In this document: positions 5,652 to 34,459 of the stretch, piece after piece | How the letters are laid out: each line of letters begins with the position of its first letter | Numbering within the stretch: the stretch's first letter is position 1 | DNA from: an uncultured Candidatus Marinamargulisbacteria bacterium | Lineage (GTDB): Bacteria; Margulisbacteria; Riflemargulisbacteria; GWF2-35-9 | Length of the DNA stretch: 34,577 nucleotides | Reading direction: 5' to 3' | Assembly: GCA_903910705.1 (NCBI GenBank) | Contig: CAIWAN010000003.1 | Coordinates: 1-34,577, forward strand | Program-made: the position numbers and the translations under genes | Notes under the pieces: generated by a model | The model's database searches: none | Told to the model about the DNA's origin: nothing | Seen by the model: the letters and a program-made list of their open reading frames with translations, nothing else

Positions 5652-6041
5652 ATGAACTTGAAACACATTGAATCCATTGTCGAACTTTTTGAAAAGGCCT
5701 CTATCCATAAATTGGTCATTGAAGAAGCCGATCTCTCGTTGTCCTTAACGCGAGGACAGAGTGTCCCCGCCGTTCCCGTTGTTTCTACCCCTGTTGTTTC
5801 GGCTCCGGTTGTGCCTAGTCCCCTTCTCGTTTCACTAAAATCAACGGGTGTTGGTTTTGTGAAGGTAAAGGTCAACGAAGGCAACTCGATCAAAAAAGGT
5901 CAGGTGGCGTTCAGCATCACCTCTATGAATATCGAAAACGACTACAAAGCCGAGCAAGATGGCATCGTCCACCAGATACACGTTGATGATGGGGGCGCCG
6001 TTGAGTTCGGACAAAAACTCATCGACCTCAATGTTGGGTAA
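5652..6041 (+). CDS. Biotin carboxyl carrier (AccB)-like protein lacking the biotinyl lysine
   Basis: The architecture is that of AccB: an N-terminal helical segment (NLKHIESIVELFEKASIHKL, residues 2-21), a Pro/Val-rich linker (~38-58) and a C-terminal biotinyl/lipoyl fold (~64-129) ending AVEFGQKLIDLNVG. In AccB the modified lysine lies in E-A-M-K-M/L. Here the same place reads T-S-M-N-I, so position 93 is Asn (codon AAT at 5928-5930). As written it cannot be biotinylated there. It is followed by a cyclase gene rather than accC. The ATG at 5652 has AAAGGA upstream; a TTG at 5634 is an alternative start. Fold assignment is firm, but carrier function is doubtful. Confidence 0.75.
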   Translation: MNLKHIESIVELFEKASIHKLVIEEADLSLSLTRGQSVPAVPVVSTPVVSAPVVPSPLLVSLKSTGVGFVKVKVNEGNSIKKGQVAFSITSMNIENDYKAEQDGIVHQIHVDDGGAVEFGQKLIDLNVG

Positions 6042-7902
6042 ATCTCCTCGCACCCCTCGCCACAATGAGGGGCAGGATTTTCCACTCATCAAAGCGCTTT
6101 GTATTTCCGTTCTCGTCGCCCTCCTAACGCTGACCCCGATTATTCATATCCTGAATTTATCCTCCTATAACTCAAAATTTCACATGCGGGGGCCTCTCCC
6201 CACCTCGGATAACATCCTAATTGTTGCGATTGACAATGAATCGATCGACTGGCTGATGAAATGGCCTTGGACGCGCCGTACACATGCCAAACTCGTCGAT
6301 CTCCTCAAAGATGCCGGCGCAAAGTTGATCATTTATGATGTGTTTTTTGATTCCCCCACACAGTTCGATCCCCAAGATGATATCGATCTCGCAACGTCAA
6401 TAAAACGAGCAGGGAATGTCCTCCTTGCGTCCAGTTATCAAAAGATCGAAAAGAATGCCCAGTTCCAAGTGCTACGACTTCCGTTCAAGAAACCGATCCC
6501 GATTCTCAATAATGCCGCGCTTGATCTAGGCGTTGTCCATCCGGACCCAGATGCGGATAGTGTTGTGCGTCGGTTTCAACTTGTTTTTCAGTCAAAAGGG
6601 GATACGTTCTATGCTTTGGGGCTTCAAGCCGTTCGACGTTTTGAAAATAACTTTCATGTTAATTTAGAATCGACCAAAAAAATTCTTGTCGGCAAGCATT
6701 CGATCCCACTTTATCAAAAAAAGATGTTGATCAACTACCATGGTCCCAGTAAAACCTTTAAGACGATCCCTTTTGCTCGCGTTTTCGATCCGGCAGATCC
6801 GCAATTTAAAGGGGAAGAGCTCAAAGATCATCCCGAATGGTTCAAAGATAAGATCGTCTTGATCGGCGCATCGGCGCTTGAACTTCATGATGTATTCTCG
6901 ACCCCCTTCGATAAAGAACTACCGGGTGTCGAGATCCATGCCAACGTCATCGAGACCATCCTAAAGGATCAATATATTGAGGTGTTGAACGCCGGGTGGG
7001 TCTTTTTGTCCATGATCCTGATTTCTTGGGTAAATATCCGTTTTGGGAAACGCATGAAAATACGGCCATTTTTCGGATTGATGGTCTTTCAAACGCTAGC
7101 GATCTATATCGCGTCCTTTTCTGCTTTTATTTTTACTCGACTTGAAATGCCGACCTATACGCTTCTGATAACCCTTTGGCTCACCTTTCTGTTGCAAACG
7201 ATCATAAAATTTGTCCAAGAAGAAAAGGAAAAGAAAAAAGTCCGTGATGTTTTCTCCCAATATGTCGCGCCGTCGGTTGTAAACGAGATATTATCTCATC
7301 CCGAATCGATCGAATTAGGCGGAGAAATGCGCGAAGTGACGATTTTCTTTAGTGACATCCGCGGCTTTACGACGTTTAGTGAGGCCCATACCCCCAAAGA
7401 AGTCGTTGAACTCTTAAACGAATATCTCGATGCGATGACTCAAGTGATCTTCGAGTTCGGCGGAACCTTAGACAAATATGTCGGCGATGAGATCATGGCC
7501 ATATTCGGCGCGCCGCTACCTCTGGCCGATCATCCTCGTATCGCTGTGGCGTGTGCCATCGCTCAGATGAAAAAGCTGCGAGAGCTACAACAAAAATGGC
7601 GATCGGAGGGAAAAACCGTTCTTGATATTGGGATGGGGCTTAACACGGGGACGGTCGTTGTCGGCAATATCGGTTCGACGATCCATAAGGACTATACGGT
7701 CATCGGAGATGCCGTTAATTTGGCCGCACGGATCGAGTCTTTAACCCGAACCTACAGTGACGATAAACATATCACCCACCTGCTGATCTCCGAGGATACT
7801 TATCTGCAGGTCAAAGACTATTTTGAGTGCCAATATGTCGATGAGATTACGGTGAAGGGAAAGTTAGAGACCACTAAATTATTTGAGGTTCTCGTTGAAT
7901 AA
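6031..7902 (+). CDS. CHASE2-domain class III adenylate cyclase
   Basis: A membrane cyclase making a cyclic nucleotide, probably cAMP. It has an N-terminal TM helix (~23-43) and an extracytoplasmic CHASE2 sensor (~50-310, with the typical LIIYDVFFDSP and KDKIVLIGASA segments). Three TM helices follow (~320-395), then a cytoplasmic cyclase domain (~435-600). Metal aspartates are in FFSDIRGFT and KYVGDEIMA. GDAVNLAARIE carries the transition-state Asn/Arg. The lysine before YVGDE favours ATP over GTP. I chose ATG 6031, which overlaps the accB-like stop by 11 nt and suggests coupling. An in-frame ATG at 5959 would overlap far too much. CHASE2 ligands are generally unknown. Confidence 0.88.
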   Translation: MLGKSPRTPRHNEGQDFPLIKALCISVLVALLTLTPIIHILNLSSYNSKFHMRGPLPTSDNILIVAIDNESIDWLMKWPWTRRTHAKLVDLLKDAGAKLIIYDVFFDSPTQFDPQDDIDLATSIKRAGNVLLASSYQKIEKNAQFQVLRLPFKKPIPILNNAALDLGVVHPDPDADSVVRRFQLVFQSKGDTFYALGLQAVRRFENNFHVNLESTKKILVGKHSIPLYQKKMLINYHGPSKTFKTIPFARVFDPADPQFKGEELKDHPEWFKDKIVLIGASALELHDVFSTPFDKELPGVEIHANVIETILKDQYIEVLNAGWVFLSMILISWVNIRFGKRMKIRPFFGLMVFQTLAIYIASFSAFIFTRLEMPTYTLLITLWLTFLLQTIIKFVQEEKEKKKVRDVFSQYVAPSVVNEILSHPESIELGGEMREVTIFFSDIRGFTTFSEAHTPKEVVELLNEYLDAMTQVIFEFGGTLDKYVGDEIMAIFGAPLPLADHPRIAVACAIAQMKKLRELQQKWRSEGKTVLDIGMGLNTGTVVVGNIGSTIHKDYTVIGDAVNLAARIESLTRTYSDDKHITHLLISEDTYLQVKDYFECQYVDEITVKGKLETTKLFEVLVE

Positions 7903-11229: not shown

Positions 11230-12102
11230 ATGCTAAAGTGGATGCTAATACTGTTATCAACGGTCTGTGCGTTTTCATTCGTTGAACCGCAATATTCGGG
11301 TGTGTTTGATGTCCGGTATATCAAATCAAATGCAGCGAGTGGAGCCGGACTTTTCTCAATCTCCGATTTTGAATTGTTTGCGAATTTTCCCATCGATCCT
11401 CATCGTCGTTTGGTCTATGAAACCCATCTGGCTAGCAACAATATAGAATGGGCTCAACAGTTTTATTTTGATATCGATCCTATATCCCTGCCGGGTAGTT
11501 TTCGTTTGGGTCGTTTCAATCTGCCGTTTGGTCAAGAACCAGGAAGACTGAAAGATAGAGCCTTTATGGCAAATCGTGTCATTTATGATATTCCCTCGCT
11601 TATTCCTAAATCCGAGACTGGGGTTGGCTATTTTCATAACACGCGCCCTTTTTCGGTTGATTTATTTTTCGTCAATGCCAATGATGGAACAGCCAAGACT
11701 ACGGGGGGCGACTTGCGGTTTCTGATCAAAGATACGCTCGACGCGGGCTTTTCGATGATGTGGGCTGATTCTCTTTTTCTTGCTGGAACGGATTATCATT
11801 TTCCCTTAGGGCCTTTCGATTTCTCCGCCGATTATCAGCTGGTTTCGGGTCGGTCATCAGGGGTTCCAATCGAAGGAAATGGTGCCTCTGGTCAAGTGTT
11901 GATTAACATCGACAAGTCAATGGCCATCGGGAGTCAATATTCTGTTTATAACAAAAACGATTCACCCAAAAGCAGTCGACTCTTATTCAATACGACTCTT
12001 CGTTTGAGTTATGATCTAACCATTCGGCTTGAATACATGATCGATCATCTTCTGGGAGTCGATGATAACGTGTTTCAAGCTCAGTGGATGGTCGCTTTAT
12101 AG
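11230..12102 (+). CDS. Predicted outer-membrane porin-like protein
   Basis: 290 residues. A signal peptide (MLKWMLILLSTVCAFSF) is followed by amphipathic strands and aromatic girdle residues. FRLGRFNLPFGQEPGRL recalls phosphate-selective (OprO/P-like) and related porins, but I cannot assign a substrate. The last strands (RLSYDLTIRLEYMIDHLL, then FQAQWMVAL) fit barrel closure. The SD is a G-run at 11217-11222. The gene lies 23 nt after hisS. Its stop overlaps the GTG of the cheW-like gene (TAGTG), so an envelope protein, a translation enzyme and a chemotaxis adaptor appear to share one transcript. Confidence 0.65.
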   Translation: MLKWMLILLSTVCAFSFVEPQYSGVFDVRYIKSNAASGAGLFSISDFELFANFPIDPHRRLVYETHLASNNIEWAQQFYFDIDPISLPGSFRLGRFNLPFGQEPGRLKDRAFMANRVIYDIPSLIPKSETGVGYFHNTRPFSVDLFFVNANDGTAKTTGGDLRFLIKDTLDAGFSMMWADSLFLAGTDYHFPLGPFDFSADYQLVSGRSSGVPIEGNGASGQVLINIDKSMAIGSQYSVYNKNDSPKSSRLLFNTTLRLSYDLTIRLEYMIDHLLGVDDNVFQAQWMVAL

Positions 12103-12566
12103 TGAGTGAGATTTCTCAATATGTTGTGGCGCGGATTCAGGAAGAGTTGTTTGCATTAAATATTCGATATGTCCAAGAGATCCTTAAACAACCTGATATT
12201 ACAAAAGTACCCACCAAGGTTCCCTATTTACTGGGATTGATCAAGCTTCGTAATCAAGCTGTTCCGCTCATAAATGTTAGAAAAAAGTTTTATAACACCG
12301 ATGAGCTTGTTCATTCGCCGGTGGTCATCATCATTCAGGATGCACATCTTAATAAATTAGTGGGATTGTTGGTGGATGAAGTCGAGGAGATCGCGTCGAT
12401 TCCCAGTGATTCGATCGACCATCCGATCCTGTTTTCAGGCCGAGATGGCGAAGAGTCCGTTTCGGGTGTGGCCAATTTGAATTCAGGCCTTGTCATTATT
12501 TTGAATGATGAAAAACTCTTTTCCGATCTTGATTATAAAGCGTTTGAAACGATCACCAAACCTTGA
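12102..12566 (+). CDS. CheW-like chemotaxis coupling protein
   Basis: A 154-residue single CheW domain, the adaptor joining methyl-accepting receptors to CheA kinase. Typical segments are the ALNIRYVQEILKQPDITKVP strand pair, YLLGLIKLRNQAVPLINVRKKF (the family's GxxxxRGxxxPVxDL region) and GLLVDEVEEIASIP. I chose GTG 12102, overlapping the previous stop. ATG 12084 would lengthen the overlap without a better SD. No cheA or receptor gene is in the window. It could serve the MotAB/FliG-like motor encoded 5.5 kb downstream, but that link is only inference. Confidence 0.85.
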   Translation: MSEISQYVVARIQEELFALNIRYVQEILKQPDITKVPTKVPYLLGLIKLRNQAVPLINVRKKFYNTDELVHSPVVIIIQDAHLNKLVGLLVDEVEEIASIPSDSIDHPILFSGRDGEESVSGVANLNSGLVIILNDEKLFSDLDYKAFETITKP

Positions 12567-17716: not shown

Positions 17717-20044
17717 ATGACTTCCTCAGCCGAAGAATTCGACCATATCATTAATGTAGCTCGAAAGCAGTCCGACGTTATCTCTAAACATGCTGAAGAT
17801 GAAGCTCAATTCATTCGATCCAAAACTCAAGAAAATATCTCAACTCTGTGGACATTAACACACGACGAAGTCGAGCGTCTTACTCGAGAGATTCGTGATG
17901 AAGCGAGCCAAATTACAAAGATCGCCTCTGATCAGGCTACCGTTATTACGGATCAAGCCAATGATAGTGCGCAGAGGATGTTAGTATTTATTCAACGCCT
18001 GCTAGCGAATGCGACAGGGATGTCTTCTGCTATGATCGAAAAACTGCGCAATATTGACTCCGATATTACCAAAATGATCGAAGAGGCGAAAACAAAAGCA
18101 TTAGCTGATCGGGAATCCATTTTGGACATTGCCAAAAATGAAGCCATGCATCAACTGGAAAGCATGCAGTCATGGGCTGAAGAGGTTCATCATGAGGCGA
18201 TTGCTTATGGGCAGAATCTTGTTCAAGCGGCACAAGAGAATGCCGATAAGATTCGTGCAAAAGGACTCTTTGAAGCCGATCGACTTATTTCAGAAGCCAA
18301 TAAAGAATCATTGCGACGATTAGATGAAGTGAAAGCCTTTTCCGAATCGATCCGACTCTATTCAACCGATCAAGTCAAAACAGAACTTGAAATGTCTGAG
18401 TCCGAAGCACGACTCGTTCTTCAAGGAGCTTATGATCAAATGAGAACGATTCTTGATGATGCTCGTAATTCAGGGACATTGATCCATGAAAGAGCGTCTG
18501 ATCGTTTAGCCTCTGCCATGTCTGAGGCTCTGGATATTGTTGATAACGCACGTCAAAATGGGATTGTTATCGAAGAAAAAGCCTCCGCAGAATTAGAAGC
18601 CGCGAGACAACGTGCGGATCGTTTGATCCTTGATGCCAAAGAACAAGCCCAAACTATTATTGCTGATGCTGAGGGAGTGGTCACGTCAATGATGGATCGT
18701 GCAGAGGATGATGTTCGCGCTATTCGCCAAGAAGCAGAAACTGTTTGCGAAAGTTTGCGTCAACAGGCTATTGATTATCATGATCTGCTTGTTCAGACAG
18801 CTGAGAAAGAATCCGAAGGGATCATGGTCGAGGCAGAGCGTCTAGAATCAGAGATCCTTCAACATGCCCAAGCTACTGCCGATTCTATGGGTGATGCAAC
18901 CGAGTCCAAGGAAAAAATAAATATCCTGATGTCAGAAGCTAGACAAAAGGCAAGTCAGCTTATTGAGCATGCAGAGGCCTGTGCGATCGAGATTGTCCAG
19001 CAAGCCGAATCTGCAGATAATACGATCAATGTAATAAGCGAAATAAGTGAAACAACTGAGACATCGAATATGATCATTTCCGACGCTACTCAAAAGGCAA
19101 CTCAACTGATTGAACAAGCCGAGGCACGCGCGATCGCGATTATTGAAAAGGCCCAATTTGATGCCGATGAAACGATTAATAAAACGAATGATAAAGCTTT
19201 TGAAATTCTTGAAAAAGCCCAACTGGATCTTGATCAAAATGAATCCTTTGAATCAGAACAAACGAAAGCCCTCGCCATTCGTGCTGAGGCCGATCAGTAT
19301 CGCAAGATGCAAGAGGATCAGGCTGCAGATCTCATTCGTGAGGTCGTTTTGTTGATGGGTGAGACTCGAGAAAAGTCGGCTCGCATCCAAGCTCGCGCTG
19401 ATTTGAATCGACTTAATGCTGAAAAAGCCATTAGTAGTGACCATACAAGCCTTGAAATAATTGAACAAGCAAAACTTGATGCTGAGGAGATTATTGTCAG
19501 TGCCACTCAGAAAGCTGAATACCTGCGCACCTTAGCTGAGTCAGACGCTCTTGAGGTGAAAGAATCTGCGGCTCGATATCAACAGGCGATCGTTCAGAAG
19601 AAAACCTATGAAGCTGAAGAAATTCGTGCGAAAGCTATTGTTGAGGCGAAGTCATTTATGGATGAAGTGCGAGCTCACAGTAAACAAGAATGGAATAATA
19701 CCTTGCGTGAAGCCTATAAAATTGCCGAGAAGAAAGATAGTCTTCTTGAGGAATACACTCAGTATGAGCAAGATATCCGATCGAAGATATCCGCTTCTCA
19801 AGCTAAACTCGAACAACTTGAACAACATATTCGTAAGGGACAAGAAGAAGAAGCTCGGATCAAGGCTCGTGTAGAAATTCTCTTAGAGCCTCTTACTCAA
19901 CGTAAGGATCATGTTGGCCAAATGAATGAAAATATTGATGTTTTACACATGAACAAAAACGGACTATTTATTTCAAATCCAAAAGCGAATAAATCGGTAT
20001 CATCGTCAATCGATCAAAAGAGTCAATCGATTTATGCAAGTTAG
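17717..20044 (+). CDS. Giant cytoplasmic coiled-coil protein (motor-cluster scaffold candidate)
   Basis: 775 residues, almost entirely charged alpha-helix rich in Ala, Glu, Gln, Ile and Arg. It has no signal peptide or TM segment. Units of the type A-x-x-I-x-x-x-A-x-x-x-A recur. One ~50-residue unit is visibly duplicated: EARQKASQLIEHAEACAI at DNA 18933 and DATQKATQLIEQAEARAI about 150 nt later. The build resembles bacterial hendecad-repeat filament or polarity proteins (Scy/FilP type) and DivIVA-like proteins, but I claim no orthology. The last ~60 residues are less regular. The motA-like gene starts 7 nt after its stop, so it is very probably co-transcribed with the stator. I infer a cytoskeletal scaffold or track. 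Confidence 0.7.
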   Translation: MTSSAEEFDHIINVARKQSDVISKHAEDEAQFIRSKTQENISTLWTLTHDEVERLTREIRDEASQITKIASDQATVITDQANDSAQRMLVFIQRLLANATGMSSAMIEKLRNIDSDITKMIEEAKTKALADRESILDIAKNEAMHQLESMQSWAEEVHHEAIAYGQNLVQAAQENADKIRAKGLFEADRLISEANKESLRRLDEVKAFSESIRLYSTDQVKTELEMSESEARLVLQGAYDQMRTILDDARNSGTLIHERASDRLASAMSEALDIVDNARQNGIVIEEKASAELEAARQRADRLILDAKEQAQTIIADAEGVVTSMMDRAEDDVRAIRQEAETVCESLRQQAIDYHDLLVQTAEKESEGIMVEAERLESEILQHAQATADSMGDATESKEKINILMSEARQKASQLIEHAEACAIEIVQQAESADNTINVISEISETTETSNMIISDATQKATQLIEQAEARAIAIIEKAQFDADETINKTNDKAFEILEKAQLDLDQNESFESEQTKALAIRAEADQYRKMQEDQAADLIREVVLLMGETREKSARIQARADLNRLNAEKAISSDHTSLEIIEQAKLDAEEIIVSATQKAEYLRTLAESDALEVKESAARYQQAIVQKKTYEAEEIRAKAIVEAKSFMDEVRAHSKQEWNNTLREAYKIAEKKDSLLEEYTQYEQDIRSKISASQAKLEQLEQHIRKGQEEEARIKARVEILLEPLTQRKDHVGQMNENIDVLHMNKNGLFISNPKANKSVSSSIDQKSQSIYAS

Positions 20045-20051
20045 TTAAATC

Positions 20052-20810
20052 ATGATCGATATATCAACTGTCGTTGGTTTTATTGTTGCTTTTTTTCTGA
20101 TCTATGTTGGTATTTCACGAGATGCGAATATCGCTCTGTTTATCAATGGTAGCGCCTTAATTCTTACGGCTGGGGGAACGCTTATAGCTACATTCATCGC
20201 CTTGCCTTGGTCTATGGTTCCCAAGGTGTTAAGGGCGTTCGTTAAACTGTTCGTAGAACCTAAAGCAGAATCTACTGCCGCAACCATAAAGAAAATGGTT
20301 CGATATAGTGAGATCGCTTATTCCCAAGGCGTAGAACAGTTGCCATCGTCGGATGAGTTTAAAAAGGAAGCCTTGTTTGTTCAGAAGGGGTTGATCATGC
20401 TTTCAGACGGACGACCAGAGAACTTTATTAAAGAAACGTTAGACTCTCATATTCGTGAAATGGCTAGTCGGCACAAAATGATCGCGGATACGTTTGTTAC
20501 AGCCGGTAGTTTTGCACCCACCTTCGGTCTGCTAGGAACAGTCGTCGGCATTATTCAAGTGCTTCGTCAAATTACAAATCCCGCGCAAGTGGGGCTCTCT
20601 ATGTCGATTGCATTGTTAACCATATTTTATGGTGTAGTGCTTGCTAATGTTGTTTTTATTCCTTTGTCTCAGAAACTACGTTTTCGTAGTTCCCTTGAGG
20701 TAAAATATAAGCAACTGGTCATTCAGGGTATTGTTTGTATCCATCAGGGAATGATCCCGATCATGGTTGAACAACGATTGAAGGGGTATCTTGAGGAGAG
20801 TAAGTCTTAA
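20052..20810 (+). CDS. MotA/PomA-like stator subunit
   Basis: Inner-membrane channel subunit of an ion-driven motor, 252 residues as in PomA. Two TM helices (~4-22 and ~30-52) precede the cytoplasmic torque domain (~60-145). Two more TM helices follow, with the signature GSFAPTFGLLGTVVGIIQVL (~156-175) including the conserved channel proline. There is no long periplasmic loop. QKGLIMLSDGRP matches the PomA cytoplasmic segment in style. It follows the coiled-coil gene by 7 nt, has no clear SD (likely coupled), and precedes motB by 2 nt. It differs from ExbB/TolQ by topology. Confidence 0.9.
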   Translation: MIDISTVVGFIVAFFLIYVGISRDANIALFINGSALILTAGGTLIATFIALPWSMVPKVLRAFVKLFVEPKAESTAATIKKMVRYSEIAYSQGVEQLPSSDEFKKEALFVQKGLIMLSDGRPENFIKETLDSHIREMASRHKMIADTFVTAGSFAPTFGLLGTVVGIIQVLRQITNPAQVGLSMSIALLTIFYGVVLANVVFIPLSQKLRFRSSLEVKYKQLVIQGIVCIHQGMIPIMVEQRLKGYLEESKS

Positions 20811-20812
20811 GC

Positions 20813-21499
20813 ATGCCGGATCAAGATTTTATTGATCAAAATCATGATATTGAAACAATATTAGCCAATACCAATCGATGGGCCGTCTCTTATGGAGATT
20901 TGATGTCGGTATTGATGTGTCTATTCCTTCTTCTTTATGCTTTTGCGGCGACCAATAATGTAGAAGGTCGAAAGCAACTTGAGCAGATCCAGAAAATGTT
21001 CGGGGGCAATTCTGATAAGCAACTTATGAATGTGGTCAAACAGATCAATCTTGAAGAATCAACGGCTAAAGAAATTCGCGGATTTATTGAGGGTTCAAAT
21101 TTGTCAGGATATGCCGTTATCAAGGTCGACGATTTCCAAATTAAATTGATGATGACTCAAGCGATCATGTTTGAGTCAGGAAGTACATCTATCACTTCAA
21201 AGGTTACCCCTGTTTTAGATAAATTAGCTCAAATGTTAAAGGTTATGGATAATCGGATCGAAATTGAGGGTCATACGGATGATTCCCCCGGAAACAATTT
21301 TGAGATCTCCGTGGAACGGTCGTTATCTGTTATGAACTATTTAATCGCAAAAGGGATCTCGCCTGATCGAATAGCGCTTATCGGAATGGGTTCGTTTCGG
21401 CCTCTGGTTCCTAATAAAAATGATGAAAATCGATCTCGAAATCGACGAGTCGAAATAAACATTCTCAGAAAACAAGCAGATTTACTTAAAAATTCCTAG
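20813..21499 (+). CDS. MotB/PomB-like stator subunit with OmpA-like domain
   Basis: 228 residues. A short cytoplasmic tail precedes a single TM helix with the ion-carrying Asp29 (WAVSYGDLMSVLMCLFLLLY). The DLMS-LMC pattern is closer to Na+-type PomB than to E. coli MotB, so sodium coupling is plausible but unproven. A short linker leads to a C-terminal OmpA-like peptidoglycan-binding domain (IEIEGHTDDSPGNNFEISVERS to NRRVEIN). The linker/plug region is short compared with MotB (~308 residues). It is immediately downstream of motA. Together they should form a 5:2 ion-driven stator anchored to the cell wall. Confidence 0.9.
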   Translation: MPDQDFIDQNHDIETILANTNRWAVSYGDLMSVLMCLFLLLYAFAATNNVEGRKQLEQIQKMFGGNSDKQLMNVVKQINLEESTAKEIRGFIEGSNLSGYAVIKVDDFQIKLMMTQAIMFESGSTSITSKVTPVLDKLAQMLKVMDNRIEIEGHTDDSPGNNFEISVERSLSVMNYLIAKGISPDRIALIGMGSFRPLVPNKNDENRSRNRRVEINILRKQADLLKNS

Positions 21500-21546
21500 A
21501 AAAGCTTCTAGTTAGAGTTTTCATCGGTTAAGATATTTATGAACTC

Positions 21547-23085
21547 ATGTCATATTTGTCAAAATATCAATTAAAGTTAATTCTTGTATGCTTTATAGGG
21601 CTGCAGGTGTTTTCCTTTCCTTTGCAACTTGGGGAGGTCGTCGAATTACAGCGTGATTATGAGGTAAAGGCTCAGTCCGTCCTTAATCGCTATTTCGGTC
21701 CAGATCAAGTCCTTGTTAATGTGATCGTGTTTACAAAAAACTCTAATATCACCACGATCAGTAACTTTAACGAAAAGAATCAGCTTAAGAATCAACCGAT
21801 GAATGGTGATCAAGCTTCAGCAAATAATCTTCCGGGGTATTCTGTTTTATCTGCTCAACAAAACCGAATGTATGATTCTGTTTCGCAGATCAGTCGGGTC
21901 AGTCAACAAACGGCTTCAGAAAAAGATATCTCACGAATTGAAGCAACCTTGATCGTCCCCGTAAAGTTTACGATCCCAGCGGTGCAACAAGCTCAACAAA
22001 TCGTTTCTACCGTTCTAAAGTTGGATACTATTCGGGGGGACAAACTTACGGTAATGAAGCTCGACTTTAAAGATGTTAAGAGTGCTGATCTTCCCTTCTC
22101 GAAGCGTTTTATTCAAACCATTCAATCGAATGAATTCATTAAGATCTACGTCGTTTATGCCTTTATATTGTTAATCGTCCTTATCGTTGTATTGGCGTTT
22201 CTATCGGGCATTTTAATTATTTCTAGTCGACTCAGAAGAAATGCTAATCAAGCGTTATTATCCGATCAGGTGAATGCTAATCAACCTGCTCAAAAAGAAG
22301 AGGATGCTTCCTCCATTGATGAATTGGGCGATATGTTAGGTGCAACGACGGTTAAACAGCCCACCTTTGTATCGACGCCTCAACAAACCGGAAGCAGCGC
22401 ACCTGAAGGGGTTGCTCTATCCTTGCTTCCTATCGATCAATTAGGAAAGTTGGCCTATTTAATAAAAAATGAAGCCATCGAAAAGCAATTGGCTGTTTTT
22501 AATTATCTTCGCCCCGAAGTCGCTGCTCGACTACTTGAATTATTCCCTCTCAATACACAAAAGGCCATCGTTCTTAATCTGAGTGAAGAGCGAAAACTTT
22601 TGCCCGATGATGTAAGGGCTTATGTTGCTGATATTGAATCCCAACTTGACTATACGCTCGGAGGTAAAGCCTTTACTAGCCAATTGTTTGACTTTGTAAA
22701 TGTCGAAACCACGCAAAATATTCTCGACGAAGTTCGTAAAGATAATCGAGGGCTAGCAGATGAAATATCCAAGAGCATCTACGTTTTCTCTGATCTACAA
22801 TTCGTCGAAAAGGGTGTTATTCAATCGATTGTTAGATCGGTGGGTGTTAAAGAGTTCTCTATCGCTATGAGTGACGAACCGGAGGTTTTTAGAGAGGTCA
22901 TCTATAGCTCTGTTTCTGATGGCGTAGGCGAGTTAATTAAACAATCTTTATCACTGCTGCGTCGTCAGCCTCGAAGTGTCGTTGCTGAGGCTAAACAGAA
23001 GGTTGTTCTCTTGATCAAACGTCTCAATAAAGAAGGTCTTGTTGCAGATAAAGGGTTATTAACTAAAGTCTCTAACGACATCTAA
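21547..23085 (+). CDS. Natural FliF(C-half)-FliG fusion protein
   Basis: 512 residues combining two flagellar parts. Residues 1-24 are a signal peptide or anchor. Residues ~36-175 resemble FliF ring-building motif 3: YEVKAQSVLNRYFGPDQVLV corresponds to the FliF ...LEPIVGPGNVRA segment, and KLDTIRGDKLTVMKLDF to ...GLDPERGDSVEVVNMPF. A TM helix follows at 199-226, equivalent to FliF TM2, then a linker. A FliG middle/C-terminal domain fills ~290-512 (LPIDQLGKLAYLIKNE, LGGKAFTSQLF, ISKSIYVFSDL, IQSIVRSV, VVLLIKRLNKEG). FliF RBM1/2 and TM1 are absent. Charged torque-helix residues of FliG appear substituted. It has no clear SD. Located 47 nt after motB. Confidence 0.82.
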   Translation: MSYLSKYQLKLILVCFIGLQVFSFPLQLGEVVELQRDYEVKAQSVLNRYFGPDQVLVNVIVFTKNSNITTISNFNEKNQLKNQPMNGDQASANNLPGYSVLSAQQNRMYDSVSQISRVSQQTASEKDISRIEATLIVPVKFTIPAVQQAQQIVSTVLKLDTIRGDKLTVMKLDFKDVKSADLPFSKRFIQTIQSNEFIKIYVVYAFILLIVLIVVLAFLSGILIISSRLRRNANQALLSDQVNANQPAQKEEDASSIDELGDMLGATTVKQPTFVSTPQQTGSSAPEGVALSLLPIDQLGKLAYLIKNEAIEKQLAVFNYLRPEVAARLLELFPLNTQKAIVLNLSEERKLLPDDVRAYVADIESQLDYTLGGKAFTSQLFDFVNVETTQNILDEVRKDNRGLADEISKSIYVFSDLQFVEKGVIQSIVRSVGVKEFSIAMSDEPEVFREVIYSSVSDGVGELIKQSLSLLRRQPRSVVAEAKQKVVLLIKRLNKEGLVADKGLLTKVSNDI

Positions 23086-23093
23086 TCAGATAT

Positions 23094-25040
23094 CTAATCA
23101 ATCGACGTAAAGTTGATCTTCAACATTTTGGTGCCTTCTACATAATCTTCAATAATGGGTTCGTTCGTTTTGGATATCTCATTAATCAAGCCCTCTATGC
23201 GTTTCTCGTTAGCGTATAAAAGGTCAAGGATAGGAGCGATCTCCTCGAGATCTTCTGGACTAAGTTTTTTTCGTATAAGATTCGTTGCCATTAAAATTGA
23301 GGCAAGCGGGTTTTTGATCTCGTGATTGAGCGTGACGGCCATGGTGGAGATCAAGGCCAGTTGTTCGGATTTTGCTTTTATCAGAAATAAGGTTTTAAGA
23401 TCTGAGGTCATTTCGTTCAAGGACTGCGCCAATTGTCCCATTTCGTCTTTGTTATTCAGTTTGATCTGAAAATCGAGGTTCCCTTTCTTAAATTCGAACA
23501 ACCCTGCACTGATCACTTTGATCGGATTTTCGAAAAGTAGGGCGAGCAGAAGCCCAAGAACAATAAATAAAAGGGTAGACCCAAACAATATCATTAAGGC
23601 GTTCTGTTCGCCCTTCAAGACCCCCGAGAGGGCAATACTCTCCTTCTGTTTTACGACATAGGTAATATCTAGTTTAGGATCGTACATTAAGGCCACAAAG
23701 TAGGGCTCACCCTGATAGGAGAGTTTCTTGAATCCGTTTTGTTTTAGACTGACCCCCCTTAATGCATCGGTGACAGAAAGATAGTCATGTTGCTGAATAG
23801 AGAAGTAATGTGAATTGATAATGTCAATTTCAAGCTGAGTACCCTTTTGAAGCTGTTCAAAGAGTGCTGTTAGGTGGTTGACATTGAAAAAAGCCGCTAA
23901 GCTATAAATACAGGCCGTTTCTTCAGGATTTAGGATGGGGATAGAGACGAACATAAGATCCTTTTGAAAGGAAATATAATTCTTTATCATTAAGTTGTTC
24001 TTGATGGCCAAATCATAGAGTAAAGAAGTAACGGGTGATGATTCTGCATTGATCAAGTTAATATCGCTTTGTACCGCTCTGATATGACTTGGTGTAAGGA
24101 GCATAAGTTCTTTTACGGAAGGGTTTCGTCTAACGGCATCATAAAAGAAGGCGCCCGTGATCATAAGATTGTTGATGTCGATATTGGGGTTCTTTTTGAG
24201 CTGCTCTAAATATTGAGCATTATTTTCGATGGTATTCTCAATTTCTGTTTTCAAACTATAAGCCATCCTAACGAATATTTTGTGTTCATTTTGAATGATA
24301 GCGTTTCGTGTCAGAGTTAAGATCGAGAAAGACGTTCCCAAAATGGCGAGGATAATTAACAAGGTAAATGCTGAAACAAATTTAAAGATCATTCTTGATT
24401 GAATAAACTCAATGATCGATTTTATATTAAACAAGGATCGATGAGCGGTGCGACGCGTGATAAAGTCAATATTGACGATCGATAGCCCAATAAACCCTAA
24501 AAAGGAGAGGATAGAGAAATCGGTTCGAGGTAGAAAAGCAATGAGTGGCAATATCAGAATGAAGAATCGAGAGCTTGGGCGGCTCATTTCGAGATGTTTC
24601 CCATTTAAATTAAAGATGCCGGTCAGCATGAGTAAAATGCCGATATAACCAAATTGATGGGTGATATAGTTTTGAATGTCAATAAAATGGGCGTGAGGAA
24701 CGGGACAAAATATTAAAGCGCCCGAAACCAACGTCAAAGCAATTAGGTAGGAGTTCTGACGGTTTTCAGGTAGCTTATCTTTAATATCTTTAATAAGGAA
24801 AACGCCAATGCCAAAGCTATTTAAAAGAAACAATCGTTCGATGGTGGAAATAAGGGTCTCACTAAAATGACGATCTCCAATAAACATGATCACAAAAGCT
24901 AAAATGATCTGAAGCAATATCAATAATGCGCCGACCTGAATGTTTTTTCCGCGATATTGGAATAAAAATAAGACCCAAATAACAATATCCATTATTAAGA
25001 TAATCGTCGAGAGGTATAGAAATAATGACGAGAGATCCAT
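23094..25040 (-). CDS. Membrane sensor with HAMP and HisKA domains but no ATPase domain
   Basis: 648 residues from ATG 25040. Seven or so N-terminal hydrophobic helices (to ~190) come first, then another TM helix (~225-250), a large extracytoplasmic Cache-like region and a further TM helix. HAMP follows (NPIKVISAGLFEFKKGNLDF...), then a DHp/HisKA helix pair with candidate phospho-acceptor His573 (LNHEIKNPLASI). Only 75 residues follow the histidine, ending EDYVEGTKMLKINFTSID. No N, G1 or G2 box of an HATPase domain exists, and the convergent fusion gene ends 8 nt away, so no broken remainder can lie there. A separate kinase may phosphorylate it. TTG 25049 is a weaker start. Confidence 0.8.
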   Translation of the reverse strand: MDLSSLFLYLSTIILIMDIVIWVLFLFQYRGKNIQVGALLILLQIILAFVIMFIGDRHFSETLISTIERLFLLNSFGIGVFLIKDIKDKLPENRQNSYLIALTLVSGALIFCPVPHAHFIDIQNYITHQFGYIGILLMLTGIFNLNGKHLEMSRPSSRFFILILPLIAFLPRTDFSILSFLGFIGLSIVNIDFITRRTAHRSLFNIKSIIEFIQSRMIFKFVSAFTLLIILAILGTSFSILTLTRNAIIQNEHKIFVRMAYSLKTEIENTIENNAQYLEQLKKNPNIDINNLMITGAFFYDAVRRNPSVKELMLLTPSHIRAVQSDINLINAESSPVTSLLYDLAIKNNLMIKNYISFQKDLMFVSIPILNPEETACIYSLAAFFNVNHLTALFEQLQKGTQLEIDIINSHYFSIQQHDYLSVTDALRGVSLKQNGFKKLSYQGEPYFVALMYDPKLDITYVVKQKESIALSGVLKGEQNALMILFGSTLLFIVLGLLLALLFENPIKVISAGLFEFKKGNLDFQIKLNNKDEMGQLAQSLNEMTSDLKTLFLIKAKSEQLALISTMAVTLNHEIKNPLASILMATNLIRKKLSPEDLEEIAPILDLLYANEKRIEGLINEISKTNEPIIEDYVEGTKMLKINFTSID

Positions 25041-25049
25041 GCTAGTCAA

Positions 25050-26834: not shown

Positions 26835-28274
26835 GTGGGGCTCATTCGTTTAGGGTTTATTGTATTTATTTCCATTATCATCGGACTACTTAGTTCAGCG
26901 GAAATTATTGGAGGTTATACCGCCGATTATTTAGACTATGGCGTAGGGGCTCGATATCTTGGGATGGGGAGTGTCGGTCGTACGATCGCTATGGATGCCA
27001 ATGCAGGGTATTGGAATCCTGCCCTGTTGCCTCGTGTTCGCGATATTAGTTTAAGTGGCATGACAACCACGTTACTGGGCATGACCAAATATAATCAAGC
27101 GGCCTTATCTATTCCTCTAAATGAATCTGATGTTATTGCGTGTACCTATATCGGGTTTAATGTCGATCAAATGGAGCTTCACGGGATCATTAATGATGCG
27201 ACCTCAACACCTGAAGGGTATTTCACAACACAAAAGAATGCATTGATGATCAGCTTTGGTCATAAGATGAGCCCATCCATTAATGTCGGACTCTCTGGAA
27301 AATATGGCAGCCGTCGAGTTTATAACAGTCAAGATAGTGTGATTGCCATGGATGCCGGCACGTATGCGGATTTTGGTGATTTTCAATGTGGTGGGACGAT
27401 CCGAAATATTGTCGCAATAAAATTGGGCGAACAGACGGATGATAATTATGAACTTGATTTTGATCTTGGAACCAGTTACAAAATGGATCAATTGCTATTT
27501 AGTTTTGACGTGGCACGGATTCTTCGAAAGAATACGTCGTTCTTTGTTGGGGCTGAATATGCAGCCATTAGCATAAAAGATAATTTTGACCTCAAAATAA
27601 GGGCGGGGATCAATAGCAATGAGATGAGTTTAGGGCTGGGCGTTCAGACAACCCCCATATTCTTTGACTATGCTTTCCTCATCCGTCCGCTTAGCCAAGA
27701 GCATCTTTTCTCAATGGGTTTAAGTCTAGAAAATATTGCGATTAAGAATAATGATCAAAATGCGGAAAAATGGACACAAAAAGCATTCGAAGCGATACAA
27801 CGAAACGATTTCTCGCTGGCCAAACGATATATTCAAGCCAGTTTAGATCAAGATCCTCAAAATCAAAAGATGAAAACCATCGATCAGCAGATCGGTCTTA
27901 TTCTCGAGATATTAAGCAATCGCTCGATCAAAGATAGCAATGGACAACGATTGCTTTATGAATCAATGCATCGTTTTATAAAGGGTGATTTTGATATGGC
28001 AGTCGATATCGCGGAGTATTTATCTCGAAAGAACAATTCACTTCAAGTATTTAGTTATAAACAGCTATTAGAAAAAACAACGGGTCATGTTTCAACCTAT
28101 AAAGGCGTTGATCTTGTTCAATATAATTTGGAACTTGCCCAAAAAGAACGATTGGCTGATCATGTCGAAGCAGCTGCAAAATGTCTGAGAACCATTTTAT
28201 TCTTTGAACCTAATCATGTAGAGGTACTAAAACAATTGGGCGATCTTTCTCAACTATTAAAAAAAACAACTTAA
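26835..28274 (+). CDS. PorV/UPF0164-like outer-membrane protein with C-terminal helical repeats
   Basis: 479 residues. After a signal peptide (FIVFISIIIGLLSS), the segment YLDYGVGARYLGMGSVGRTIAMDANAGYWNPALLP matches the opening of PorV/PorQ/UPF0164 barrels, FadL-related proteins that in Bacteroidota assist type 9 secretion. Barrel-like strands run to ~300. The last ~170 residues are helical with TPR-like character (AFEAIQRNDFSLAKRYIQAS; LRTILFFEPNHVEVLKQLGD). The start is uncertain: GTG 26835 overlaps the best SD (GAGGTGGGG), which would better serve a rare ATT at 26844. The next gene encodes a protein with a T9SS/FlgD-like C-terminal domain. Confidence 0.7.
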   Translation: MGLIRLGFIVFISIIIGLLSSAEIIGGYTADYLDYGVGARYLGMGSVGRTIAMDANAGYWNPALLPRVRDISLSGMTTTLLGMTKYNQAALSIPLNESDVIACTYIGFNVDQMELHGIINDATSTPEGYFTTQKNALMISFGHKMSPSINVGLSGKYGSRRVYNSQDSVIAMDAGTYADFGDFQCGGTIRNIVAIKLGEQTDDNYELDFDLGTSYKMDQLLFSFDVARILRKNTSFFVGAEYAAISIKDNFDLKIRAGINSNEMSLGLGVQTTPIFFDYAFLIRPLSQEHLFSMGLSLENIAIKNNDQNAEKWTQKAFEAIQRNDFSLAKRYIQASLDQDPQNQKMKTIDQQIGLILEILSNRSIKDSNGQRLLYESMHRFIKGDFDMAVDIAEYLSRKNNSLQVFSYKQLLEKTTGHVSTYKGVDLVQYNLELAQKERLADHVEAAAKCLRTILFFEPNHVEVLKQLGDLSQLLKKTT

Positions 28275-28351: not shown

Positions 28352-30295
28352 GTGATTCGTTGGCTATGGCTGAGTATTTTCATTTTCGTCATAGCTTCAT
28401 CATCTTGGGCTATTGAAAGTCCTCGCTTTAAACTCGATACGATAAAGACCCCCTCATACCTGAGTCAAAATATCACCGCGTCTTTTAATCGTTTCTCCAT
28501 GTTGGATGACCAAGAAATGCTGTTTAGGGTTAACATTCCCAGCAATAATCTCCATCCAACAAGAACCTACCAATCGTTTTTTAGTCAATTCATGGTGTCT
28601 TCACTGTATGGTGGGTTGCCCTATGTTGTGACCTTTAGTCAGAACCCTTTCACGATCACGTTAGGTGCATCGACCCTGATCGATCTTGAGGTCAGTGAAG
28701 AGCTAAGCAGCTGGATCGTTCGTATCGACGGGATACTACAACTCAATTCTGTGTATGATAATCGTCATCTTCTGGTCGAATATACGCCAATTTTAGAGGG
28801 GATGCGATCGCACGAGATGAATCTTAGTATTGCTGATATGGGGTGGAATATTGGCCTTTCAACAATCAATTTTCTGCTTAGGGTCGGAGGAGGGGATGCA
28901 ATCGAACAAACCTTGATTACCGACGATATTATGGCTCAGGTCCGCCCTGGGAAAATAAATTATCCTGCCCTCGTTTTTGATCTAATGGCCCCTGATTACG
29001 AGTATTTGCTTGACGGTGTTTCAATAAATATCGATTCGCAAGAAAGTGCAAGTTTGTTCGACGCCATTTATCTGGTCGATCCGAGTACGAACGAGGTGAT
29101 TGTTAGTTCGTCTATCGTATCGCTAAATGAAACGTTCTTTATGCCCATTTCATCGATGATGATGGTGACGTCGCTCAATGAACGCTTTGAATTAAGGCTC
29201 GACGTCAAATCAACGGCTCCTGTGGGGGCAACCTTCGATGTGAAACTTAATGCTATCTTATGCCATCAAGTGGGGAGTGTGGGTAACTATATCCATATTC
29301 CTGGCACACTTGACGGGGGTGTTATTAAGGTGGTTGACCTTGTTTCTCTTCTGCAGGTTGACGATTTCACCTCGGTAACATCGAGCATCACGGTTAACTT
29401 TAGTGTTGAAACCATAGGCCCGATTCCGACACAGTTCCGCTATCAATTGTTTGATGTCACATCAATGAACCTTTTCTCGCCCATGTTGCTGCCGTTTGAA
29501 TCATTACCCACTTCGGGTATCGTTTATGTGTTGTCTCAAAATGTTATTAGCCCCTTTAGTCTCATTCATGCCCATGACTATCGTTTAGCTGCTCAAATCC
29601 TTAATCCTATAGTCGGGGATTGGACGAGTTCAAATATTTTCAGGGTAGATATCACGCCACCAATGGTGCCTAATAAGCTAAAGATCCAAACCATGACGGC
29701 TATTTCTTCTAATATGACGGGTGCAAAGCTAAATATTGATACCCGTCAGTGGCTTGACCCTGAGTCTGGATTAAAGTGTTATGAGATTTTTCGAAAAAAA
29801 GGCGTCGAAACGGAATGGACGGTTTATGTGTCTGGAAACGTATCTTCAGAAAATGTTACCTCGGTTAATATCGAAGAAGAAAATGAATTCCAATATTATT
29901 ATGCAAGCCGTTTGCAGAATAGGGCGGGGCTCTGGTCTGAATTGAGCGATGCGAGGGATCTCGATCTCCGTTTAGGTGGACTGCTCATTGCCGCTCTATA
30001 TAATTCGCCGAATCCTTTTGATGCACGAAAACAAAGCACAACCATTTATTATACGCTAGGATCAGACAGTGATGTGGATATCGTTCTTTATGATATGTTC
30101 GGCTATTTGATCAAAAAGTGGCACTTCCCATTAGGTGCGACGGGAGGTCAGAAAATGTTCAATACTCTTGTTTGGGATGGTACTAATCAACTCGGAGATA
30201 AAGTCTCTAAGGGGGCCTATATTCTCTTCATGAAAGCAACCGATACGAACGGTGTTACCATGCAGAAGAAATACTCCATCGGTGTTATTCGTTAA
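28352..30295 (+). CDS. Large secreted protein with FlgD-like/T9SS-type C-terminal domain
   Basis: 647 residues from GTG 28352 (SD GAGGGAG at 28338-28344). A signal peptide (WLWLSIFIFVIASSSWA) precedes several beta-sandwich-like segments. A fibronectin-III-like region lies at ~440-530 (LDPESGLKCYEIFRKKG...). The C-terminal ~95 residues are NSPNPFD..., TIYYTLGSDSDVDIVLYDMFG, FNTLVWDGTNQLGDKVSKGAYIL, the FlgD Ig-like fold used as a sorting tail in type 9-like systems. It directly follows the PorV-like gene (77 nt), suggesting secretion or anchoring through it. Specific function unknown. Confidence 0.7.
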   Translation: MIRWLWLSIFIFVIASSSWAIESPRFKLDTIKTPSYLSQNITASFNRFSMLDDQEMLFRVNIPSNNLHPTRTYQSFFSQFMVSSLYGGLPYVVTFSQNPFTITLGASTLIDLEVSEELSSWIVRIDGILQLNSVYDNRHLLVEYTPILEGMRSHEMNLSIADMGWNIGLSTINFLLRVGGGDAIEQTLITDDIMAQVRPGKINYPALVFDLMAPDYEYLLDGVSINIDSQESASLFDAIYLVDPSTNEVIVSSSIVSLNETFFMPISSMMMVTSLNERFELRLDVKSTAPVGATFDVKLNAILCHQVGSVGNYIHIPGTLDGGVIKVVDLVSLLQVDDFTSVTSSITVNFSVETIGPIPTQFRYQLFDVTSMNLFSPMLLPFESLPTSGIVYVLSQNVISPFSLIHAHDYRLAAQILNPIVGDWTSSNIFRVDITPPMVPNKLKIQTMTAISSNMTGAKLNIDTRQWLDPESGLKCYEIFRKKGVETEWTVYVSGNVSSENVTSVNIEEENEFQYYYASRLQNRAGLWSELSDARDLDLRLGGLLIAALYNSPNPFDARKQSTTIYYTLGSDSDVDIVLYDMFGYLIKKWHFPLGATGGQKMFNTLVWDGTNQLGDKVSKGAYILFMKATDTNGVTMQKKYSIGVIR

Positions 30296-33025: not shown

Positions 33026-34459
33026 ATGCGAAACCCATTCATTCGGCTGATATTCCTTGTCTTCATTTTGTTGTCAGTAGTGGCTTTTCCGATCATTCGA
33101 AAAGCGAGTGATGCAAGTGTTCATATCTACTCGCGAATAGAAGTTCAAGGTATAACCATTTCACAGAATGGGAATGTCGGTATCTGTACCGTATCCCCAA
33201 CCGAGGCACTGTCTGTTTCAGGAAATGGATTATTTTCGGGCACCATTACAGCTAATCGTTTTGTGGGTAATGGCTCTGGCCTGACAAATTTGCCTATTGC
33301 CACCGCCAACTTAGCTTTGACGAGCAACATCGCCATCTCGTTGAATGCCCAAGGGCTGATAGGCGCGATATCGGTTGCCACAGGGAACACCATCATGGCA
33401 ATAACCATTTCAGGCAATGTGGGGATCGGGACAACCGCTCCCACGACGAAGCTTGAAGTCGCCGGCACGGTGAGTGCCTCGGCAGTGGTGGTCAATGGCC
33501 TTGCGAGTGCGGCTAATTTTCTTCCTATTCCGACAGCCAACTGGCCGGACTTTGATGCGGGTTCGCCGTATTTGATCTATGGGGCGTTGTGGGTTGGCTG
33601 GGATGCCACAGCCCAAGTGTGGAAGTACCATAAACAAAACGGGGCGACGGCCCCGCGAGGACTAACCGATCCGGGCAACCCGAACACATGGACGGTGAAC
33701 GGAAGCACGATGGGCTACTTTAACGGCAATCTTTCGAGCCTCCCTTCGGGTACACATATCAACAACAAATATAATCCTGATATGATGGCTTATCGCTGTA
33801 ATCAAGACGACATCCAGATCAAAATAGGATCGGTATGGGTGGATAAATACGCCAATCGTATTCTGGATGTGGGCAGTAGTTATTCGGGCAGTACGCTCAA
33901 GGACGATGGGGCGGACATGCAAGGTAGCGGACAAACGACGTCGCCGTATTGGATGGCGTTCTCGCAAAAGGCGCAATGTAGTACGGGGATGACATGGTTT
34001 ATTGCCCAAATAGCGGCCAACAACGCCGGAAAACGACTGCCCGCCAATGAAGAATGGCAGTCTGCTGCCATGGGTACGGCGCGGAGTGCCGGTAACGGCG
34101 TAGCCAACGGAGATAGTTGGTCGAGTGTTACAGATACGGATCTGTCACGCTATGGTGTTGTCGGGATGGTGGGTAATATCTGGGAATGGGTGGGGACATG
34201 GTGGCAGTCCGGTATAAAGACCACCACCTTTACGCAAGGGGAATCAGCTGCTGCGTGGGGAGCGAGTTATGGGGACGACTATACGTGGAACGTTAATGGT
34301 TCGGCATATGGTAATGCGGGATGGACGAACAACCTCCCCGCTGCGTTGCTTCGTGGTGGCCTTTGGGGCAGCGGGACGAATGTGGGCGTCTTCGCCTTGT
34401 TTGCGTATGACGCTCCGTCGAGTTGTTCTATCATTATCGGGTTCCGGTCTGTTCGCTAG
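33026..34459 (+). CDS. Surface display protein with FGE-like C-type-lectin domain: DGR target protein
   Basis: 477 residues. A signal peptide (FIRLIFLVFILLSVVAF) leads to the base module shared with stalk protein B (HIYSRIEVQGITISQNGNVG... FSGTITANRFVGN) and further fibre segments (ISGNVGIGTTAPTTKLEVAG, ~130-150). The C-terminal half is a formylglycine-generating-enzyme/sulfatase-modifying-factor type fold: RLPANEEWQSAAMGTA (~337), YGVVGMVGNIWEWVGTWW (~377), then RGGLWGSGTNVGVF...GFRSVR at the extreme C-terminus. That ending is the hallmark of DGR-diversified ligand-binding proteins, so this is probably an export-displayed receptor with a hypervariable binding face. No enzymatic role is likely. 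DNA of the C-terminal half is clearly GC-richer than the stalk-coding part. Confidence 0.85.
   Translation: MRNPFIRLIFLVFILLSVVAFPIIRKASDASVHIYSRIEVQGITISQNGNVGICTVSPTEALSVSGNGLFSGTITANRFVGNGSGLTNLPIATANLALTSNIAISLNAQGLIGAISVATGNTIMAITISGNVGIGTTAPTTKLEVAGTVSASAVVVNGLASAANFLPIPTANWPDFDAGSPYLIYGALWVGWDATAQVWKYHKQNGATAPRGLTDPGNPNTWTVNGSTMGYFNGNLSSLPSGTHINNKYNPDMMAYRCNQDDIQIKIGSVWVDKYANRILDVGSSYSGSTLKDDGADMQGSGQTTSPYWMAFSQKAQCSTGMTWFIAQIAANNAGKRLPANEEWQSAAMGTARSAGNGVANGDSWSSVTDTDLSRYGVVGMVGNIWEWVGTWWQSGIKTTTFTQGESAAAWGASYGDDYTWNVNGSAYGNAGWTNNLPAALLRGGLWGSGTNVGVFALFAYDAPSSCSIIIGFRSVR
34352..34456 (+). other. Predicted DGR variable region (VR)
   Basis: Codes residues 443-477. The invariant frame RGG-x-W-x-x-G-T-N...GVFAL-x-x-x-x-APS...IGFR matches the FGE-type DGR consensus as I remember it (RGG-x-W-N-N-G; ALNLNNAPSNS; IGFR). 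Positions where that consensus has Asn are here L, G, S, F, Y, D, S, C, I and I. Their codons (ctt, ggc, agc, ttt, tat, gac, agt, tgt, atc, att) all end in C or T, as expected when AAC/AAT template codons are adenine-mutagenised. The GC-rich 3' end GGGTTCCGGTCTGTTCGC (34439-34456) would serve as the initiation-of-mutagenic-homing site. Template repeat and RT are not in the window. Confidence 0.78.

Follow-up and report, generated by a model that had tools for sequence, protein, structure and literature searches.

The 34,577-nucleotide contig CAIWAN010000003.1 of an uncultured Candidatus Marinamargulisbacteria bacterium (contig C3 of a 2.2 Mb assembly with 97.7% completeness; the whole contig is called the window below) carries a compact run of genes in which a MotA/MotB stator stands beside a natural fusion of the flagellar ring protein FliF with the rotor protein FliG. 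Based on sequence and structure models, we propose that this run probably encodes a flagellum-independent, ion-driven rotary motor that is built from flagellar engine parts and acts on envelope or surface proteins; both the rotation and its output we infer. Ring-building motifs 1 and 2 (RBM1/2) of FliF, the N-terminal FliG domain (FliG_N), the torque charges and the FliM-binding motif were all looked for and not found, and because of this we would class the system as a variant of the flagellar motor kind and not as a flagellar rotor. The open-licence literature that we searched describes no natural FliF-FliG fusion, no MotAB-FliG system without flagella and no such system in the phylum, in line with the first-pass annotation of this DNA, which knew of no system of this composition.

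The rotor-like fusion and its matched stator

The same annotation had described four consecutive genes at 17717-23085, encoding a coiled-coil protein, MotA, a MotB with its ion-binding Asp and a fusion in which ring-building motif 3 (RBM3) and the second transmembrane segment (TM2) of FliF continue directly into FliG. Open reading frames and Pfam matches agree with this description, and the four genes form one tight run with intergenic gaps of 7, 2 and 47 bases (Table 1).

Table 1. Positions of the motor genes, the parts of the fusion and the neighbouring features in the window (aa, amino acids; TM1, first transmembrane segment; TPR, tetratricopeptide repeat)
Feature	Position	Strand	Evidence or remark
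Coiled-coil protein, 775 aa, cytoplasmic	17717..20044	+	Ala every 11 residues (hendecad)
MotA-type stator subunit	20052..20810	+	Pfam PF01618 E 1.9e-25
MotB-type stator subunit, plug and OmpA-like peptidoglycan-binding domain	20813..21499	+	Pfam plug 1.6e-11, OmpA 8.6e-20
Natural FliF(RBM3)-TM2-FliG(M+C) fusion, 512 aa	21547..23085	+	Pfam, profile, AlphaFold, Foldseek
Fusion, N-terminal hydrophobic segment (signal peptide or TM1), residues 8-29	21568..21633	+	Hydropathy; AlphaFold helix 3-50
Fusion, RBM3 domain, residues 30-172	21634..22062	+	Profile, AlphaFold model, Foldseek
Fusion, TM2, residues 194-230	22126..22236	+	Hydropathy maximum 3.46
Fusion, FliG middle domain match, residues 301-354	22447..22608	+	Pfam FliG_M
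Fusion, FliG C-terminal (torque) domain, residues 395-498	22729..23040	+	Pfam FliG_C
Membrane sensor, weak Cache, HAMP, HisKA	23094..25049	-	Adjoins window-type rotor in two other genera
PorV/PorQ-family outer-membrane protein, weak C-terminal TPR matches	26835..28274	+	NF033709, synteny
Secreted protein, C-terminal FlgD_Ig / type-IX-like domain	28352..30295	+	Domain also in giant protein at C104

For the fusion, Pfam matches FliG_C with an E value of 1.1e-16 and FliG_M with 2.1e-4; the C-terminal part of FliF (PF08345) taken alone matches weakly (0.018). Neither RBM1/2 (PF01514, up to E 0.1) nor FliG_N, the domain that docks on FliF, was found by Pfam. Twenty-two relatives of the fusion align over its full length, with invariant Q43, G51, P96, G97, D165 and a FliG GG pair. 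When a profile was made from the N-terminal half of these fusions, it picked out the genome's own canonical FliF at 2e-10 and 1e-3, the matched segments being collinear with RBM3. The AlphaFold model consists of a helix-strand-(insert)-strand-helix-strand unit at residues 30-172, in which the insert (66-125) falls at the beta-collar position and is predicted with low confidence, followed by a membrane helix at about 195-230 and FliG helices at 296-495. Both the RBM3 and the FliG folds are thereby recovered: every one of the best 38 Foldseek matches of the model in the PDB is a FliG or a FliF structure, the RBM3/collar entry 6sd1 among them. At the family level, sequence and models make the RBM3 half firm. 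By the same evidence the fusion is genuine, FliF contributing RBM3 and TM2 only and FliG its middle and C-terminal domains only. The junction is not direct as first described, with about 60 disordered residues lying between TM2 and FliG_M.

The channel residues of the stator are retained. Window MotB keeps Asp29 (codon 20897-20899), window MotA keeps the equivalents of P173 and P222, and all stators that we compared retain both the Asp of MotB and the prolines of MotA. The E. coli FliG torque charges K264, R281, D288, D289 and R297 correspond to S, G, Q, S and P in the window fusion, E. coli MotA R90 and E98 are replaced by Y and P, and the FliM-binding EHPQ motif is not kept in the fusions. 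Across motor pairs, loss of the FliG torque charges goes with loss of MotA R90/E98; the canonical FliG (C25) and a MotA on C64 of the same genome retain the charges. Our reading is that the stator-rotor interfaces have been re-specified and insulated.

Phylogeny points the same pieces to each other. The FliG tree separates the Margulisbacteria fusions from flagellar FliG as a single clade (support 0.98), and MotA and MotB from the fusion loci group in matching clades (supports 0.978 and 0.981). Rotor and stator tree distances correlate at 0.79 and 0.87 (0 of 5000 permutations; shared species history is included in these values), and at 0.60 and 0.73 within the common subtype. Judged from these mirrored trees, rotor and stator belong together and have co-evolved. 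Relative to a sister species, the ratio of nonsynonymous to synonymous substitution rates (dN/dS) is low for MotA (0.045), MotB (0.029) and the coiled coil (0.116); for the fusion dS is saturated and dN is 0.14. These comparisons indicate that purifying selection on the window motor genes is strong.

Distribution of the proposed motor and its relation to flagella

We surveyed 74 Margulisbacteria genomes (the collection matches named Candidatus Margulisiibacteriota, Marinamargulisbacteria and UBP8), and found the fusion in 29 of them; two of these are incomplete or variant, split over contigs in G025 and a 648-aa form in G032. FliG_C was matched in 31 genomes, MotB in 29 and flagellin in 8. MotB is nearly confined to genomes with the fusion and was found in 28 of these 29 (28/1/1/44 over the survey; Fisher p 4e-18, uncorrected for kinship). 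The layout recurs: a TPR protein, the fusion, MotA and MotB is the commonest order, with MotAB directly after the fusion in most loci and the TPR gene directly upstream of it in 16 of 16 loci. The arrangement first pictured, with a stator opposite a FliG anchored in the membrane, is conserved and lies outside any flagellar operon. The reduced set of parts, together with the flagellar remnants known in other species (PMC12199754), might suggest the decaying remainder of a lost flagellum. Such decay is exceedingly improbable in view of the strong purifying selection, the conserved gene order, the kept channel residues and the one-to-one stators.

The motor had been thought to operate without export gate or filament. 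This does not hold for the genome at hand: its other contigs carry export gates (flhA), fliM/N, flagellin and hook genes as well as full-length fliF and fliG as separate genes, which is literally what the annotation had named as its refutation. Judged by flagellin searches in metagenome-assembled genomes, absence of a flagellum does hold for at least 21 relatives: there was no match in 21 of the 29 fusion genomes, the remaining 8 being this genome (G000) and 7 relatives. In eight flagellin-less genomes (G017, G034, G038, G039, G043, G053, G057 and G061) the fusion is the only FliG_C match. Since many relatives that are unable to build a filament have retained this engine, its load is probably something other than a propeller.

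The genome that contains the window encodes two full FliF proteins, six FliG_C domains, two FlhA, five MotA plus one TolQ/ExbB-like protein, five MotB, three flagellin-N matches and four FliM/N-type domains. One canonical, complete flagellum, hook included, is spread over C25, C52, C61 and other contigs. That flagellum, and the presence of CheW and CheY-like genes in the vicinity of window-type rotors, would suit a motor that assists the ordinary flagellum, for instance as an extra stator or rotor ring. We regard this as very unlikely: 21 fusion carriers have no flagellin match and the flagellar interface charges are gone from both rotor and stator, and for these reasons the module is not explained away by the flagellum of its genome.

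Four RBM3-FliG motors coexist in this genome, located in the window and on C104, C68 and C57. The C104 locus has a fusion, an additional FliG and a giant secreted protein, and in the C68 motor a TPR gene precedes a fusion of 572 aa. In the C57 motor (L015:4693-11125), RBM3 protein and FliG N/M/C are separate genes, accompanied by a FliM-like protein and two TPR proteins; in G012 the C57-type rotor is a single 825-aa chain (L188:6793-9267) with SLH domains inside the collar. Counting the canonical flagellar rotor, five rotors stand against five MotAB pairs. C57-type clusters also occur elsewhere (L180, L181), and in other genera MotAB lies inside the same cluster.

A second flagellum-like system on C94 (L013) comprises FliF, FliE, FlgB/C/G, P and L rings, FliH, FliI and a sigma factor, with FlhA elsewhere; its FliG has the N and partial M domains without FliG_C. 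Apparatuses of this type are present in most Margulisbacteria genomes (L144-L163), mostly without flagellin, MotB and FliG_C, and look like a non-rotary flagellum-type secretion apparatus. The fusion could then be the torque ring that the C94-type system is missing. All fusion carriers in which any FliF was found have a C94-group FliF or two FliFs, the C94-type FliG lacks FliG_C, and in one family the fusion lies just upstream of a C94-type cluster (L155). Against this, most genomes keep the C94-type system without fusion, MotB or FliG_C, and therefore it does not need the fusion. Linkage is confined to that one family, several fusion paralogs per genome face a single C94 system, and the EHPQ motif is lost in the fusions. 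We thus consider a C94 torque ring unlikely.

Outside the phylum, 28 genomes were searched, and two Balneolaceae among them encode an RBM3-FliG fusion each, 634 and 641 aa long, in clusters ordered fusion, 397-aa protein, TPR protein, MotA, MotB; one of the two genomes has a flagellar operon of its own. The Balneolaceae FliG falls outside the Margulisbacteria fusion clade and the MotA groups with C57-kind stators (0.998). From this tree placement the RBM3-FliG fusion may have arisen more than once. The collection scan used a sub-alignment of the 22 fusions and says nothing on window-type fusions outside the phylum.

Envelope partners and a proposed mechanism

Beyond the four genes first noted, the window-type locus also includes genes for an outer-membrane protein of the PorV family and for a secreted surface protein. 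The former matches NF033709 at E 1e-21 (77.7 bits, slightly below the cut-off of 90, which paralogs in C70 and L191 exceed). Its nine matches at E<1e-6 all lie in motor loci, with none in the flagellar, C94 and other loci examined, and PorV-family paralogs adjoin C68-type motors. In another genus (L179), a PorV-family gene and a gene for a type-IX-like secreted protein are syntenic with a window-type rotor, and the type-IX-like C-terminal domain recurs in giant proteins adjoining C104 and C68 rotors. The two proteins are likely to be the envelope and the surface part of the motor system, respectively.

TPR genes accompany the common-type, C57, C68 and Balneolaceae rotors, and one C68-type rotor bears TPR repeats within its own chain. 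The common TPR partner gives a confident AlphaFold model (pLDDT 80) with a TPR-like fold. A SPOR domain considered at its end was confirmed by neither Pfam nor fold search. CheY-like genes adjoin window-type and C68-type rotors. Taken by their sequences, the partners point to the envelope.

The window coiled coil has Ala autocorrelation peaks at 11, 22, 33 and 44, weak DivIVA/Scy-like matches, an 846-aa ortholog that precedes MotA in the sister species (L177) and weak similarity to coiled coils adjoining other motors. The scaffold role suggested for it would concern the window family, to which it is specific; the commonest partner elsewhere is the TPR protein.

We propose that the module is likely to work like the flagellar motor. 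The fusion would assemble through RBM3 into an inner-membrane ring, with the FliG M and C domains as its cytoplasmic rim, and peptidoglycan-anchored MotA5MotB2 stators would turn this rim by ion flow, as the kept channel residues suggest. Each rotor subtype would have its own co-evolved stator and re-specified interface, and therefore a single cell could run several of these motors alongside its normal flagellum. MotAB might also walk along, or push, a non-closed RBM3-FliG array that acts as a track or clutch with no big wheel rotating, and long coiled coils could lay such tracks. This is quite unlikely, given that FliF forms its rings through RBM3 in the structures solved so far, of which 33- and 34-mers are among the Foldseek matches. 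For the proposed rotary motor, TPR proteins would pass on the output at the periplasmic face, probably joined in the window family by the PorV-family outer-membrane protein and the type-IX-like surface protein. Its task would most likely be to move or export surface proteins, by a gliding-like form of motility or by transport of a type-IX-like kind, with control of the CheY/CheW type; judged by the genes present, this role fits best.

Some points weigh against this proposal. The AlphaFold monomer of the fusion reaches only moderate confidence (pLDDT 63, pTM 0.30). The output is assigned from gene neighbourhood only, with partners that vary by subtype. The window's own genome has a complete flagellum, so that the motor may have a flagellar role there, and the surveyed genomes are metagenome-assembled, some of them incomplete. 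More tentative still is the generalization that there is a class of stand-alone, MotAB-driven rotary machines with an RBM3-FliG wheel, present in two or more phyla with several insulated subtypes in each cell, and driving surface proteins or export with no filament; the odds lean somewhat against it.

Two side observations concern the partner proteins. A long coiled coil adjoining another MotAB pair, in C70 (L165:6987-8951), shows weak similarity to the one in the window and has an N-terminal NPD motif in common with large coiled coils at C68-type loci. The giant secreted protein adjoining the C104 rotor (L014:10782-18512) has 2268-2576 aa and Ig-like domains and is kept across genera (L197, L198, L200); it ends in a FlgD_Ig / type-IX-like domain in the C104 and L197 copies.

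Known systems and neighbouring genes

The bacterial flagellar motor (FliF MS-ring, FliG, MotAB) has in common with the window system a MotAB with channel Asp, RBM3 and the FliG M+C fold. In contrast to it, the fusion is without RBM1/2, FliG_N and the EHPQ motif, its torque charges are replaced, it also occurs in genomes without a flagellin match, and three other RBM3-FliG rotors coexist in the cell besides the flagellar one. The AglRQS-Glt gliding motor of Myxococcus has a MotAB-like channel that works without flagella; unlike the window system, it has no FliG/FliF rotor. GldLM of type IX secretion and gliding in Bacteroidota is an ion-driven inner-membrane motor used with PorV-type outer-membrane proteins and C-terminal-domain secreted proteins, and itself has no FliG or FliF ring; the likeness here is known from the PorV-family and C-terminal-domain genes alone.

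Laboratory FliF-FliG fusions in Salmonella and Vibrio still assemble rings (PMC6079021, PMC11481574), and a Salmonella fusion-deletion mutant still rotates, according to a citing passage in PMC9389320. Those fusions are artificial and derive from the FliF of a working flagellum, whereas the natural protein has RBM3 only. FliG, FliM or FliN also occur in filament-less species, where their role is unknown (PMC12199754); this work surveys presence only and does not describe an RBM3-FliG fusion or module. Being concrete, conserved and stator-matched, the system bears on the re-use of ion-driven motors for gliding and secretion, on how cross-talk among several motors per cell is avoided, and on the minimal rotor, where the natural fusion resembles the engineered ones.

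Next to the fusion gene, the membrane sensor is conserved in two other genera, at 45% and 35% identity, again beside window-type rotors. An ATPase domain of the histidine-kinase type was not matched in it, and it is possibly a regulator. The window further contains CheW at 12084-12566, a CHASE2 adenylate/guanylate cyclase at 5959-7902 and an FGE-sulfatase (formylglycine-generating enzyme) domain protein at 33026-34459.

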